Position numbers and translations under genes: made by a program. Source: Brochothrix thermosphacta DSM 20171 = FSL F6-1036 (GTDB taxonomy: Bacteria; Bacillota; Bacilli; Lactobacillales; Listeriaceae). From it: a stretch of 64,000 nt of DNA. This document shows positions 1,195-16,778 of the stretch, in pieces. Below the pieces are notes generated by a model. It made no database searches. It was not told the DNA's origin and worked only from the letters and a program-made list of their open reading frames with translations. Position 1 is the stretch's first letter. Each line of letters opens with the position of its first letter. The stretch spans positions 1,550,001-1,614,000 of the forward strand of contig NZ_CP145608.1 of the NCBI RefSeq assembly GCF_036884295.1, given 5' to 3'.

Positions 1195-3705
1195 TTAAAG
1201 AGGCACACTAAATTTTAATACTAATTGTTGTTTGATTTTTTTTACAGAATCTTTCCTTATTTCACCAAAGTAACTTCCAGTAAACTGTAAATTCATTTGT
1301 TTTTGTTTTTTTATGACTCCCATAGCTGAAACTGGCGTATCTTTATTCAAAGAGGAAATTTGCTGATTATTATCCACAACTAAATTCAAACGAGCGGCTT
1401 CACTATAATTAACAGGGTCACGTTCTGTTGAAGTTAACAGTTTAATACCATCAGTGACTACTTCTTTAAATGCGCTTAATTCTAGCTCGACTGAATGGGT
1501 CTGTGAGTTATTAATAATTTTATAGCGATTAGATTCAATTTTTTTATTTACTGTTTTATCTTCCGTATTGCTAAAAAGCATCTCAATTGGTAGCGTTACG
1601 TTAATTTCTTTATCTAAATTGTTAACAACCACATTTTTAGTCACAGTAATTAATTCACCATTATGGTCTTTTATACCATAAACAACTTGATATGTCCCTG
1701 CGACAGTCGTATCAACCTCAACACCATTTAAACCCCAAGTCATCTTCTTATCAAAAGCAAGCACCTCTCCATCAGCATTTGTTGCCTGAATAAAACCGGC
1801 TTCAGGATCGTATTTATCTCCTCTATTCAACTCAATATCCTTGGCCTCAATACTCGTTTGATCCTCCACCACATTAATAAACTTCATTTCAGATACAATT
1901 CCAGCTTGCACTGCATTCCTAAGTGCAATATTTAATTGATACCGTCCAATTTTGCTTGTATCAATCTGTATTTTTTCAAACTCTGAGATTATATTACCAT
2001 TGATGTAATAATAACCTAAACGCACAATATCTGCTGCATCAAGTCGCTCACCATCTTTATTTCGTACATTTGTTAATGGTGAATTCGGGTCAAATGTATC
2101 CCCCACATATAATTTAACATCTTGCGTTTCCACCGTTGTTTGATCCCTTATTACAACAACATTATAATCGGCAGTTACCGTCTGTTTATCACCATAAGAG
2201 TAGGTGATTGTTTGCTTATATGTCCCTGGCTCTGTCATTTTAACTTCTTCGCCACCAAAACTCAAGTTCGCATCATTTGGCAAAATTAACGCACCCAGTG
2301 CATCTGTCCCGGATACGAAATTATCCTTTGGATTATATGTCTGTGTGTGATACAACCTTGAATTTTTCGCTTTCAATGTCGGTGTTTTATACTTCATATA
2401 TCTGTAAACAATTGTAGCATCTTCATTATATTTTCCTTTAGCATTTGTTGGTAGTTTATCTTCCAAGAGACTATAACCTGGAATTGATTGCTTGTATTCA
2501 GGGGTAGATACGTCATAACTATCACCTTTATAACCTTGCAATTTTTTTGTTTGTGCTCCGGAAATTAATTTGTTATTTTCATCACGGTACTCAACTTTAA
2601 GATCAATTTTTTTACGTTCCCACACATACGTACCAGCATTACGTGAAACATATCCCATGAATTCTGCGGGTGTATATGTCCTCCCTTTCTCATTTTCTGA
2701 AATCCAACTGCCGCTGTAATTATCAGTATCCGTAATAGGTTCTAAGGCTGCATCTACTCTGAATGATGTTCCTGTTGGAATCGTTATTTTTTTCAATTGT
2801 GTCGCTCCAGCAAACATGTTACTGCTAGTAACTGTTCTTGAACTGCGTTTCCAACCACTGAAATCGACCTCCTTCAAGCTTCTAGCCCCTTCAAACATCC
2901 CCGAGAAATTCGTGACATTTGATACATTAAGGTTAGCTAGATTAGCGGAAGTTAAAGCACCAGCAAACCTAAATGCCCAACTAAAGGATGTGTTCTTACT
3001 CGTGTCCCAGCCCCTTAAATCGATTTTTTCCAATGACATATTATTATAAAACATCGTTGCCATTGATGTGACATTTGATACATTAACATTGCTCATTTTT
3101 TCAAAGGACTTTAAGTACAACGCGCCACTCCACATAGCATTCATATTACTAGGCATAACGACCGTACTATTAAAAATGATTTTTTCAGCTTTGAAGTTTT
3201 TCCAAGGAGCAGCATCTACAGAGCCAGCTGATCCACCGCTAATAAATGTCATGGTATTTGTGCTTGTATCACGCGAGTACCTTGTCCCACCCCAATTACC
3301 ATAAGCAATAGCCGTTGGAGACACCACTTTTTGAACTGGTTGTTTTGAAGTCGTCGCTTTTGTCGAACTATTTGATAGTGATTGCTCGCTCACTGTAATT
3401 GCTTGTTCTGACTCTTTTTTTATTTCAGTGTTTTCACTTGATAACGTATTACTTTTTTCTTCATCCTCTTTTTTTATTTCAGTGTTTTCACTTGATGACG
3501 TATTACTTTTTTCTTCATTCTCTTTTTTTATTTCAGTGTTTTCACTTGATGACGTATTACTTTTTTCTTCATTCTCTTTTTTTTCTGTCGAACTTTTTTC
3601 CATTGTGTTGTCTGTCTGACTGACACTTGATGCATTTGTTATGAATGGTACAGATAGATTACTTATTAAAAGCCCCACTATCAGAATAAAGCTTATTTTT
3701 TTCAC
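1195..3705 (-). CDS. Large secreted surface protein with BspA-like and Ig-like repeats
   Basis: 836 residues. GTG start with a strong AAGGAGGAG site 7 nt upstream. A signal peptide (residues 1-25) is followed by a Ser/Thr/Glu/Lys-rich linker with three 18-residue repeats (about 42-95). A BspA/DUF285-type leucine-rich-like region with recurring VSNVT.M..MF and W patterns follows (about 130-320), then a MucBP-like segment (about 375-440, VEYRDENNK to IVYRYM). Several bacterial Ig-like modules come next, and a C-terminal beta-rich domain ending GSYFGEI...LKFSVPL. No LPXTG motif, GW module or SLH domain is visible, so the anchoring mode is unclear. The domain mix suggests adhesion or matrix binding; the ligand is unknown. 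Confidence 0.85.
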   Translation of the reverse strand: MKKISFILIVGLLISNLSVPFITNASSVSQTDNTMEKSSTEKKENEEKSNTSSSENTEIKKENEEKSNTSSSENTEIKKEDEEKSNTLSSENTEIKKESEQAITVSEQSLSNSSTKATTSKQPVQKVVSPTAIAYGNWGGTRYSRDTSTNTMTFISGGSAGSVDAAPWKNFKAEKIIFNSTVVMPSNMNAMWSGALYLKSFEKMSNVNVSNVTSMATMFYNNMSLEKIDLRGWDTSKNTSFSWAFRFAGALTSANLANLNVSNVTNFSGMFEGARSLKEVDFSGWKRSSRTVTSSNMFAGATQLKKITIPTGTSFRVDAALEPITDTDNYSGSWISENEKGRTYTPAEFMGYVSRNAGTYVWERKKIDLKVEYRDENNKLISGAQTKKLQGYKGDSYDVSTPEYKQSIPGYSLLEDKLPTNAKGKYNEDATIVYRYMKYKTPTLKAKNSRLYHTQTYNPKDNFVSGTDALGALILPNDANLSFGGEEVKMTEPGTYKQTITYSYGDKQTVTADYNVVVIRDQTTVETQDVKLYVGDTFDPNSPLTNVRNKDGERLDAADIVRLGYYYINGNIISEFEKIQIDTSKIGRYQLNIALRNAVQAGIVSEMKFINVVEDQTSIEAKDIELNRGDKYDPEAGFIQATNADGEVLAFDKKMTWGLNGVEVDTTVAGTYQVVYGIKDHNGELITVTKNVVVNNLDKEINVTLPIEMLFSNTEDKTVNKKIESNRYKIINNSQTHSVELELSAFKEVVTDGIKLLTSTERDPVNYSEAARLNLVVDNNQQISSLNKDTPVSAMGVIKKQKQMNLQFTGSYFGEIRKDSVKKIKQQLVLKFSVPL
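3421..3582 (-). repeat. In-gene 54-bp tandem repeat (3 units)
   Basis: Three near-identical 54-bp units encode an 18-residue ENEEKSNTSSSENTEIKK-type linker in the surface protein. The period is divisible by three, so copy changes keep frame. Differences are single bases (for example NEEK versus DEEK). Confidence 0.9.
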
Positions 3706-4154
3706 TTTGACTCCTCCTTGATATTACTATGTCGCTTTTCGATCATTTAGTTGCGTTTTATTTGCCATCCCTCCTCAATAAATAAAAAATCGTGGTAACT
3801 TTAAAAACGGTTACTAATCTAATTTTATTGAATGTGTCGTCTAAAATAATAAGAGTGATATGTTTTTTATACCGCTGATTTTAAGTCCCCACTTTTTTTT
3901 ATAAAAATATACTCTTTTGGGTGAATTTAAACTTATCCCTCTCTCGATTTTATCAGAGGTATTTTTAGATAGATAATCTTATTTTGCGTTTACAAACTCT
4001 ATATATCCAAAAAAAAAGAATCTCCAAAAATATTGGAAATTCTTTTTCGTATATTATTTCTAGTACGTTAAACACAGACAACATTTTGTAATGGATTGGC
4101 GAACATAAAAACGTTAATATAAAACTTAATATCTTAACATAAGGAATTGTAATT
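3706..4154. other. Intergenic region upstream of the surface protein
   Basis: AT-rich, no supportable gene. It contains the ribosome binding site and presumably the promoter of the leftward surface protein gene. An inverted repeat near 4009-4048 (AAAAAAAAGAATCTCC...GGAAATTCTTTTT) could act as a terminator. Degenerate copies of the 42-bp repeat begin about 4090. Confidence 0.4.
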
Positions 4155-4410
4155 CTTAAGACATTTACATATGGAATTAACATAAAGAACGCTACTCTTA
4201 AGACATTTACATATGGAATTAACATAAAGAACGCTACTCTTAAGACATTTACATATGGAATTAACATACAGAACGCTACTCTTAAGACATTTACATATGG
4301 AATTAACATACAGAACCGTACTCTTAAGACATTTACATATGGAATTAACATACAGAACCGTACTCTTAAGACATTTACATATGGAATTAACATACAGAAC
4401 CGTACTCTTA
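4155..4410. repeat. 42-bp tandem repeat array (six units, module A)
   Basis: Six units start at 4155, 4197, 4239, 4281, 4323 and 4365 with an exact 42-bp period; a seventh begins at 4407 and breaks off. Each carries CTTAAGACATTTACATATGG then AATTAACATA. The last base groups vary between AAGAACGCTACT and CAGAACCGTACT, in blocks rather than at random, as expected from recent unit duplication. Because 42 is divisible by three, long ORFs appear in several frames on both strands. None has a ribosome binding site or homology I recognise, so I read this as non-coding. Degenerate units extend left to about 4090. Confidence 0.92.
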
Positions 4411-4423
4411 AGACATATGGATT

Positions 4424-4630
4424 GGTACTCGCTTGCGCTCCGTCCCATACTGTTCTCGTAAAGCGGATAAAACCGCTACGATAACAGCACCCATACTACT
4501 CTCGTAAAGCGGATAAAACCGCTACGATAACAGCACCCATACTACTCTCGTAAAGCGGATAAAACCGCTACGATAACAGCACCATACTACTCTCGTAAAG
4601 CGGATGAATCCGCTACGATAGTAGCACCCA
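4424..4630. repeat. Module B plus four 46-bp hairpin units (module C)
   Basis: A core GGTACTCGCTTGCGCTCC followed by GTCCCATACT (4424-4451) leads into four units with a 46-bp period (starting about 4447, 4493, 4539 and 4584; the last has lost one C). Each unit can fold as a hairpin: TCGT/ACGA and AGCGG/CCGCT arms, with outer arms CTGTT/AACAG in unit 1 and CTAC/GTAG in unit 4. The same B and C modules recur at 15.38-15.77 kb. The last unit forms the 3' end of the neighbouring ABC-F gene. Confidence 0.9.
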
Positions 4631-6152
4631 TACTTTCAACGTCCACTACTTTAGTGACGACTCCTTCATAAAAACTTTTCTCATGTGAGACTAAAACAAC
4701 GGTGCCTTGGTAATTTTTCACTGCGGTTGTGAGCGCATTTTTTGTCGCTTTATCTAAATGGTTAGTCGGCTCATCTAAAATAAGAATGTGGCTATTCACA
4801 AGGGTCATCGCACACAATTTAACTTTTGTTTGTTCCCCACCACTTAATTGAATGAGCGGCTTTTCGACGTGTTCTGCATTTAAGCCACTTTTTGATAACT
4901 TGCTGCGCACTTCTTTATTAGTTAGGTTTGGTAATTTCTCTTTGATAAAACTAAACGGTGTATCATTACTATCGTCCCATTCTAACTCTTGAGAAAAGTA
5001 ATTCACTTTTCCACTCGTTGGCATTTGAGCATTCCCGCCTAATGATGAAATTAACCCTAAAATTGTTTTTAACAACGTTGATTTCCCTAGACCATTAAAT
5101 CCTTTAATCAGGACTTTTTCACCTGTCGTAATACTTAAATTGATAGGTGGTAATAATGGTGCTTCATAACCAATTTCAAGTTTTTGGAGACTAATTGTCA
5201 TATCCGAATTCGTATTAACATAAGGGAACACATATTCACCTATCGCATTGGTACTCGGTGGTGTTAAACGTTCAATACGATTCAATTGCTTTTCACGACT
5301 TTTAGCAATTGTCGAACGAGATCCCGCTTTATATTTTTGGATGTATTTTTCCATCTTTTCAATTTTTTCTTGTTGTTGATAATAATTTTTTAAATACACT
5401 TCATTTGCTTCGGCTTTAAGTTTTAAAGCTTTATGGAGATTTCCTGGATACTTTTTGATACGCCCAAATTCAATATCACAAATACAGTTTGTTATGCCAT
5501 CAAGAAAAGCTTCATCATGGGAAATAACAACAAAACTTCCTGTAAAAGGATTTAAGAAATTAGTGAACCATTCAATATGTGTATCATCTAAATAGTTCGT
5601 CGGTTCATCTAATAACAAGACATCTGGTTGTTCAAGTAATAATTTCGCCAACATGACTTTCGATTTTTGTCCCCCACTTAGCTGGTTCAACTGACGGTCT
5701 AATCCCATTACATTAATACCTAAACCACTAGCGATTGTTTCTATTTTACTGTCAATTTGGTAAAACTCACGTTGTTCCAATTCTTCTTGTTTGTCCCCAA
5801 TTTTAGCTAATAAATCAGGTTCATCAGCAACACGCATGTACATCTCACCAATTTCAGCTTCTAATTGATATAAACGAGCAAAGGCTGTTTGAAGATAAGT
5901 AGTAATGGTTTCTTCGTCACTAAATTGCAGATGTTGTTGCAAATAGCCCACTGTTGTTCTTCGTCCCCAGACAATGCGTCCTTCATCTGGCATTATTTCA
6001 CCCATTAAAATTTTAAGCAATGTTGTTTTTCCAGCGCCATTTTTACCAACTAAACCTAAATGATCGCCAGGGTTTAACTGCAAGTCGCCATTTTCATAAA
6101 GCACCTTATCGGGTAATTCATATTTTAAGTTTTCAATCCGTAATAAACTCAT
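4587..6152 (-). CDS. ABC-F family ATPase (tandem ABC domains, no membrane part)
   Basis: 521 residues with two ABC domains on one chain and no transmembrane segment, the hallmark of ABC-F proteins, which act on the ribosome as translation or antibiotic-protection factors. ABC1: Walker A GKNGAGKTT (about 37-45), signature LSGGQKSKV, Walker B VLLLDEPTNYLD. A charged linker follows (about 240-300, EKMEKYIQKYKAGSRST). ABC2: Walker A GFNGLGKST, signature LSGGEQTKV, Walker B ILILDEPTNHLD. The last 14 codons (MGATIVADSSALRE) and the stop lie within a unit of the adjacent hairpin repeat. A structured leader with a leader peptide precedes it, typical of inducible ABC-F genes. Whether it gives resistance cannot be told from sequence alone. 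Confidence 0.9.
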   Translation of the reverse strand: MSLLRIENLKYELPDKVLYENGDLQLNPGDHLGLVGKNGAGKTTLLKILMGEIMPDEGRIVWGRRTTVGYLQQHLQFSDEETITTYLQTAFARLYQLEAEIGEMYMRVADEPDLLAKIGDKQEELEQREFYQIDSKIETIASGLGINVMGLDRQLNQLSGGQKSKVMLAKLLLEQPDVLLLDEPTNYLDDTHIEWFTNFLNPFTGSFVVISHDEAFLDGITNCICDIEFGRIKKYPGNLHKALKLKAEANEVYLKNYYQQQEKIEKMEKYIQKYKAGSRSTIAKSREKQLNRIERLTPPSTNAIGEYVFPYVNTNSDMTISLQKLEIGYEAPLLPPINLSITTGEKVLIKGFNGLGKSTLLKTILGLISSLGGNAQMPTSGKVNYFSQELEWDDSNDTPFSFIKEKLPNLTNKEVRSKLSKSGLNAEHVEKPLIQLSGGEQTKVKLCAMTLVNSHILILDEPTNHLDKATKNALTTAVKNYQGTVVLVSHEKSFYEGVVTKVVDVESMGATIVADSSALRE

Positions 6153-15239: not shown

Positions 15240-15263
15240 CAATATACTAACAAAGTGACAAAG

Positions 15264-15770
15264 GATTGGTACATCAACATAAGGAGTGGTACTCTAAGTA
15301 ATTAACATAAGGATTGGTGTGGTACATCAACATAAGGACTAGTACATCAACATAAGGACTAGTACATCAACATGAGGAGTGGTACTCGCTGTCGCTCCGT
15401 CCCATACTACTCTCGTAAAACGGATGAATTCGCTACGATATTAGCACCCATACTGTTCTCGTAAAACGGATGAATTCGCTACGATATTGGCAAAAAAAAA
15501 GCAACACAAAGTGTGGCTTAATTTATACAGTTCTTGTGAATAAAAAGGAATTGTACTCTTAAGGTGTTGATAGAAGAAGTGGTACATCAACATATGGAGT
15601 GGTACTCTTAAGGTATTAACAGAAGGAGTCGTACATCAACATATGGAGTGGTACTCGCTCTCGCTCCGTCCCATACTACTCTCGTAAAGCGAATGAATTC
15701 GCTACGATATTAGCAAAGGAGTGGTACATCAACAGAAGGAGTGGTACTCGCTTGCGCTCCGTCCCATACT
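15264..15770. repeat. Second modular repeat locus (modules A, B, C)
   Basis: Short A-type units (ACATCAACATAAGGAGTGGT and variants) alternate with three copies of module B, GGTACTCGCT..CGCTCC then GTCCCATACT, at 15381-15408, 15650-15677 and 15743-15770. Hairpin C units lie at about 15402-15447, 15448-15491 and 15671-15714; the third has AGCGAAT/ATTCGCT arms. Relative polarity is the same as in the 4.1-4.6 kb locus. The region between malX and the RpiR gene has no other gene. A hairpin-like stretch at 15492-15525 (GCAACACAAAGTGTGGC) lies between the blocks. Confidence 0.88.
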
Positions 15771-15807
15771 GTCTTTGTAAGCTCATTTCTTCGCAACAAC
15801 GTCAGTA

Positions 15808-16587
15808 TTATCTTTCAATGCCGGATGCTTTTAAATAATTTAAAATGAGTAGTTCTAACAAAACGTTAAATGGGATTCTTGAGGACATATCAATTTCACC
15901 ATAATAACAATTAGTGACTGCTGCTGTCATTGTTAATGTACTTAGTTTCTCCAAACTGCTGTTTTCACAGCCAATCAATGCCAAAACGGGTACTTTATTA
16001 GCTTTCAATGCTTTTGCATAGGCTAAAACATGGGGTGTTTCTCCTGAATATGAAATGATAATGGCTAAATCTTTTTTTGTAAGGTTGCGTGCAACAATAT
16101 CTAATTCATCCCAATCTCCTCGGGCGGAGCTTGTTTTGCCTGCAAATGTTAATTTACGGCTTGCTTCCATACATGTTGGGAGCGAGGCACCGACTCCAAA
16201 AAATTCGATTGCCTGACTTTTGATAAGGTAATTAGTCGCTTGGTTTAATTTTTCTTCTGATAGACGGGCTAATGTTTTTTCAATTTCTGTCTGTATACGT
16301 TGAACTTGATGTGTCAGTGATTCAGTGCGAACATCCATAATAGTTTCACTTTCGTTATTTTCAAGTGCTTGAGCCACTGCATATTTGAATTGTTGAAACC
16401 CTTCAAAACCTAACTGTTTACAACAACGGCTGATTGTCGCTGTTGAAATAAATAGTCGCTTCGAAATCGAATCAATTGTGCTTTTAACGAACAACTCAGG
16501 AGATGCTATCACATCATTTAAAAAGGTTGTTTCCAATTGACTAAGATGCCCTTTGTGCTGTTCTAATTTTTTCACTAGTATATTCAT
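15808..16587 (-). CDS. RpiR/MurR-family transcriptional regulator
   Basis: 259 residues. An N-terminal HTH_6 domain (about 1-75, ISKRLFISTATISRCCKQLGFEGFQQFK) is followed by a SIS sugar-phosphate-binding domain (about 115-245, FFGVGASLPTCMEASRKL and IIISYSGETPHVLAYAKALK). Start at 16587 chosen because GGGAGAG lies 8 nt before it; an upstream in-frame start adds eight residues. It is transcribed toward malX-malY and probably senses the phosphorylated sugar made by that PTS. The likely operator is the palindrome at 15220-15239. Confidence 0.87.
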   Translation of the reverse strand: MNILVKKLEQHKGHLSQLETTFLNDVIASPELFVKSTIDSISKRLFISTATISRCCKQLGFEGFQQFKYAVAQALENNESETIMDVRTESLTHQVQRIQTEIEKTLARLSEEKLNQATNYLIKSQAIEFFGVGASLPTCMEASRKLTFAGKTSSARGDWDELDIVARNLTKKDLAIIISYSGETPHVLAYAKALKANKVPVLALIGCENSSLEKLSTLTMTAAVTNCYYGEIDMSSRIPFNVLLELLILNYLKASGIER

Positions 16588-16778
16588 TGCACGTCTCTCC
16601 CTACCTATCAAGTATCTGTTACTTATATCATATCATTTTAGACAGTCTATCTTAAATTACTTTTTATCATTCTACAAAAAAATAGTGAAACTATCATCAT
16701 TTGTTTATTAAAAGCTTATTATCTCTACTCACAAATATTTTTTATTTCTGTATAATAAAAGATGGGAGGCGATTAACT

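Follow-up and report, generated by a model that had tools for sequence, protein, structure and literature searches.

REP and BIME repeats are dispersed palindromic units with a conserved mismatch that lie behind genes and go with RAYT (Y1) transposases. Mobilization by an IS transposase has been proposed for BOX and RUP. BOX elements (boxA-boxB(n)-boxC) are modular, with variable tandem units and tight secondary structure, occur in many copies and are enriched at gene 3′ ends, and the SPRITE repeats of pneumococcus are hairpins also enriched at gene 3′ ends (PMC3049150). The gene rpsI is a known target of tyrosine integrases, where tandem accretion takes place (PMC5357655; PMC5090054). The rpsI ICEs and IMEs, such as IMESag-rpsI (PMC5090054) and streptococcal IMEs (PMC5357655), have an att core at the rpsI 3′ end, a tyrosine integrase and tandem accretion, traits shared by the rpsI-type homologues described below. 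No mention of a terminal hairpin pair was found in the accessible text of these two papers (PMC5090054, PMC5357655).

Here we analyzed modular hairpin repeats that occupy two sites in a window of 64,000 nucleotides (the whole stretch of DNA analyzed) from Brochothrix thermosphacta DSM 20171. No description of the element was found in the openly searchable papers on Brochothrix. The layout had been likened to BOX; the modular plan is similar, but here it is the A and C modules that are multiplied, B mostly being present once. Host, module sizes and ends also differ from BOX, and the element lacks a target duplication and has an origin that appears traceable to an island end. The element is not known to resemble BOX in sequence. 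SPRITE resembles a terminator and has a long U-rich tract; the C hairpin lacks such a tract and sits behind real terminators. Like REP/BIME, the copies are dispersed palindromic units with a conserved mismatch behind genes, but sequence and host group differ, and a REP/RAYT assignment was rejected because the genome contains no Y1 transposase (PF01797, 0 matches, with positive controls). Unlike the rpsI ICEs and IMEs, the dispersed Brochothrix copies carry no genes and no att core and lie away from rpsI.

The origin of BOX-like modular repeats can rarely be traced, and in this case a likely parent can be named, the structured end of rpsI islands. We found no earlier description of this end structure, whose conservation, with compensated changes, extends over Lactobacillales to further families of the class. 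Two questions become testable: what role the hairpin pair has for the island, and how small repeats are placed precisely after stop codons and terminators. In a meat-spoilage species, the variable arrays may also serve as markers for strain typing.

Organization of the two arrays

Re-reading of the sequence reproduced the modules, coordinates and polarity that the earlier note had given for both sites (Table 1). From left to right, each block opens with A units, continues with a B core (GGTACTC..CTCCGTCCCATACT) and closes with C hairpins of 46 nt, and nearly every module starts with TACT. The window holds four B cores, starting at 4424, 15381, 15650 and 15743, and eight C units as recognized by the C covariance model.

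Table 1. Modules of the two arrays and adjoining genes, in window positions
Feature	Position	Strand	Remarks
Array 1 A units	4112..4423	+	42-nt and shorter repeats ending ..TTAACATA..GGA..
Tandem array, 42 bp, 6.3 copies	4154-4416	+	most of array 1 A region
Array 1 B core, short type	4424..4443	+	GGTACTCGCTTGCGCTCCGT, then CCCATACT
Array 1 C hairpins, four	4444..4626	+	4444-4489, 4490-4535, 4536-4581, 4582-4626; gene-sense is - strand
Residual CCCATACT, start of truncated fifth C unit	4627..4634	+	fused to ABC-F gene
ABC-F-like ATPase gene	4587..6152	-	last codons are element sequence
Array 2 block 1 A units	15263..15380	+	
Array 2 block 1 B core	15381..15400	+	
Array 2 block 1 C hairpins, two	15401..15492	+	15401-15446, 15447-15492
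Array 2 block 2 A units	15547..15649	+	
Array 2 block 2 B core and C hairpin	15650..15715	+	B core 15650-15669; C hairpin 15670-15715
Array 2 block 3 A unit	15716..15742	+	
Array 2 block 3 B core and C hairpin	15743..15807	+	B core 15743-15762; C hairpin 15763-15807; C end abuts next gene's stop codon
RpiR/SIS-type regulator gene	15808..16611	-	stop codon TAA, 0 nt to array 2

The ABC-F-like protein shows an 86% match to Brochothrix campestris. Its end has been replaced by array 1, so that VES is followed by MGATIVADSSALRE and a stop codon, compared to LQLNKM and a stop codon in B. campestris. Two minus-strand ORFs of 142 and 104 aa (window 3965-4448) owe their reading frames to the A-unit array alone and are unlikely to be genes. 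A separate 54-bp tandem repeat of 3.2 copies (window 3412-3583) lies within a large minus-strand ORF at 1195-3705, and is probably the repeat region of a secreted or surface protein.

Dispersal across the genome

The arrays had been presented as a feature of two sites. A whole-genome search with a hairpin covariance model, as the earlier note had proposed, found copies far beyond these. In the 2.56-Mb genome, a single contig, the C model (R1) gave 132 rows, which after removal of opposite-strand duplicates correspond to about 129 C hairpins in some 54 clusters, each with a single orientation. The B/C junction, allowing up to two mismatches, occurs 51 times in the genome and 0 times in the reversed control. 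Genome-wide, B comes in two types, either short (CGCTnnCGCTCC) or as a long hairpin such as AATTTCnnnnGAAATT. The family has MITE-like traits: many copies, short length, no coding and strong secondary structure.

The comparison covered one genome per species, with a single B. thermosphacta strain. The C model had no match in a sister-species draft (85% complete) or in 23 other genomes of the same family, and an exact 26-mer scan of GTDB contigs returned nothing. In Rfam, the window had no match at gathering score and the element none at E<=1 above gathering score. Plasmids gave no match for the element, nor did phage records for the window element. A match in IMG/VR (L139) lies inside a coding gene and was taken as chance. 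One provirus contig from another isolate (L140, 3195-3410) carries an A-B-C array that shares its rpsD-terminator flank with locus L081; the modules and the left flank of the two differ.

Some loci share more than the element. Long flanks are common to L082, L083 and L088 (ATTTATTTGTAGCTGAACG.. and the terminator TTGAC..GTCAA), which suggests a further intergenic repeat family containing some elements. In L072, L073, L091, L094, L096, L105 and L111, ..TATGAAAT or ..TGAAAT immediately precedes the C end, in most cases following a similar terminator, and these seven loci are probably copies of a larger duplicated unit.

Conserved base pairing

The earlier note had described compensated hairpin arms. 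These pairs are present (AGCGGAT/ATCCGCT at 4582, AGCGAAT/ATTCGCT at 15670, CTGTT/AACAG at 4444 and CTACT/AGTAG at 4582), but some window copies break one arm, combining AGCGGAT with AACCGCT or CTAC with AACAG. The proposed selection for base pairing held over the whole genome. Among 47 distinct C units, both sides have changed with the pair kept at 9 of 15 pairs, and 70 compensated cells were counted compared to 24 in shuffles, with none of 500 shuffles as high; kinship among the sequences can inflate this test, although independent genera agree. The signal was lost when the partner was slid along the C alignment. Covariation, whose absence the earlier note would have taken to speak against a structural element, is therefore present by this shuffle test.

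The island-type sequences of other genera gave the same picture. For B+C (n=25), 17 compensated cells were found compared to 4.1 in shuffles, again with 0 of 500 as high. In 36 distinct island-type C hairpins, positions 7-31 (TA/CG), 8-30 (CG/TA), 14-23 (GC/AT) and 1-37 (CG/TA) covary, and a purine-purine mismatch at 6-32, mostly G.A, is kept. The C arms covary across families. Many copies of the B hairpin have GNNA loops; these loops and the G.A mismatch kept by C are both on the gene-sense strand. There are 70 G.U pairs on the gene-sense strand and 50 on the element strand, a weak lean towards the gene-sense strand.

Position and junctions

Both window arrays had been placed at the 3′ end of a gene with the same polarity, and this extends to the family: in 45 of 53 clusters, transcription of the C-side gene runs toward the element (p=2e-7; genes were taken as the longest ORFs, and duplicated flanks at some loci make the independent events fewer than the loci). 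Genes on the A side are oriented 28 versus 26. In the gene sense, the C end lies 0-16 nt past the stop codon at nine loci and overlaps the gene end at three more, and at about ten loci it stands directly behind a terminator T tract. The C junction prefers (A/T)(A)T followed by TRCT.

A number of single B+C copies lie within ISL3 transposase genes and interrupt them beside NNKIK, a motif of the catalytic region of the ISL3 transposase, and the paralogues are intact. These insertions have their C-side junction at the same base and a variable A side, and they have lost bases of the target. A test of 49 loci gave no sign of target duplication (p=0.31). Together with the replaced ABC-F end, the interrupted ISL3 genes, the orientation bias and the stop-codon and T-tract junctions count in favor of the origin proposed below.

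The dispersed copies have no att-core repeat, and rather than the rpsI attachment core, other genes, terminators or IS fragments precede them. The only exception is a relic at 834.15-834.24 kb, beside an rpsI 3′ fragment. Since the rpsI att core precedes this relic alone, the dispersed copies are derivatives and not islands. No close homologue of the tyrosine integrase was found in this genome, the closest being 28% identical.

Homologues behind rpsI

The sequence had initially appeared to be without known relatives. This does not hold, as B+C is homologous to a hairpin pair that, in many other Bacilli, stands directly behind rpsI where integrative islands end. Matches to R1 were found in at least 47 other Lactobacillales genomes of the 398 sampled, in 20 other genera and usually one per genome (top candidates were scored, so genome counts are lower bounds), and two more families of the class also have matches. 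Of the 19 loci read first, 18 have the match behind the rpsI end or a short duplicate of it (TTAACGTTTTGAGAA, reverse sense); the exception, L155, has TTAA only and no clear att core. The layout is rpsI stop, hairpin C, GTATGGGACGGAG, hairpin B, GAGTACC and terminator, and the homology with the Brochothrix B+C includes the linker GTATGGGACGGAG. Conversely, a model built from other genera only (R2) yielded 91 rows in Brochothrix loci and also recovered the relic beside the rpsI 3′ fragment.

At several rpsI loci a convergent fragment of a tyrosine integrase lies past the terminator, on the B side. One genome has five copies, 4-18 kb apart, in the same orientation and ending at rpsI, two of them adjoining integrase genes; these are tandem islands. 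The sequence after rpsI differs among the 22 genomes of one genus: some have B+C, others retain C alone or show a near-complete deletion, and the rest have unrelated sequence or other integrases without B+C. Several Lactobacillales also have the hairpin after an intact rpsI with no integrase, and in several genomes of one other family it lies between rpsI and a sir2-like gene, again with no integrase. Among phage records, the rpsI-type query matched one putative Enterococcus faecalis contig, in which the att core is present with no rpsI nearby.

Origin of the repeats

Homology, orientation, the fixed C-side junctions, dispersal and structure are established. On this basis we interpret the family as non-autonomous interspersed repeats whose B+C core descends from the integrase-proximal end of rpsI 3′-end islands, with a probability of roughly 0.55. 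This origin is supported because copies in other genomes adjoin integrase fragments, end tandem islands and are patchy within one genus, and because R2 finds the Brochothrix copies and a relic persists beside an rpsI 3′ fragment. Against it count the lack of a cognate integrase in the genome, the fact that dispersed copies show neither an att-core repeat nor a target duplication, and the rpsI-hairpin-sir2-like order without integrase, which is how native sequence would stand. An rpsI-type island may have entered the Brochothrix ancestor, and copies of its end may then have been placed after stop codons and the T tracts of terminators, in the same geometry as at rpsI, TAA then TTRCT. The mover would be integrase-like or a hairpin-reading recombinase. 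We tentatively suggest that such an enzyme places an island-derived mini-mobile element in a fixed orientation and precisely after stop codons and terminators; a repeat class arising from an island end, and not from an IS, is part of this tentative proposal. In the parent island, pairing may be kept for folded-strand recombination or as a 3′ UTR supplied to rpsI. The dispersed copies probably have their main effect on the transcript ends of the upstream gene.

A function of the elements as RNA is one alternative. If hairpin C, linker and hairpin B, transcribed in that order from the upstream gene, were 3′-UTR elements that stabilize or end its transcripts, then selection and not a preference in insertion would explain position, orientation and pairing, in keeping with the strong orientation toward the 3′ end of the upstream gene, the way the elements begin at a stop codon or terminator, the compensated pairing both in Brochothrix and in other genera, and the gene-sense GNNA loops of B and G.A mismatch of C. 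We nevertheless consider this unlikely as the explanation: the gene-sense excess of G.U pairs is slight, many copies follow a complete terminator, past which little transcript is expected, copies within transposase genes serve no 3′ UTR, and none were found in the sister-species draft. The hairpin pair might instead be the native rpsI 3′ UTR of Bacilli, captured in the att site of islands, with the chromosomal version amplified in Brochothrix. The sir2-like order and the hairpins behind intact rpsI, both without integrase, fit such a history. However, many intact rpsI genes lack the hairpin, even in one genus, and some precede unrelated sequence, and copies adjoin integrases and end tandem islands, making it quite improbable; a native 3′ UTR common to all Bacilli is in particular weakened by the patchy presence within one genus.

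Mobilization as a MITE by a host IS transposase would suit the ISL3 copies and fragments that are common in the genome, with several elements inside or beside ISL3 and some having ISL3 flanks. A MITE with target duplication was not supported over the 49 loci, the element ends (TRCT.. and ..GAGTACCANTCCTT) are unlike those of ISL3 in this genome (GGCTCT..), the transposase itself is interrupted by elements, and the homology points to rpsI islands. We therefore regard this origin as very unlikely.

The A unit and further variants

Two reduced forms follow rpsI in other genomes: TTATTGGAAGATACCATTC, which retains almost nothing of C and B, and TTACGAGTACC, which has lost B entirely and C by half. 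The TTACGAGTACC form also occurs in Brochothrix (L077, L088 and L110). Because these forms exist behind rpsI, and one of them in Brochothrix too, the A unit probably arose from the same island end by deletion. The A(n) and C(n) arrays may have grown by unequal crossing-over or by repeated insertion at the TACT that opens the modules.

In another family of the class (L171-L186), the B hairpin after rpsI is replaced by a longer, unrelated-looking CGCAAATTGC-GTCA-GCAATTTGTG and the C fold is kept. Two tandem islands encode related tyrosine integrases (L159, 16723-17474; L160, 15633-16804), both split at the same point (..NSYRFRTTQ, stop, then a second frame), and this split is a shared frameshift or decay.
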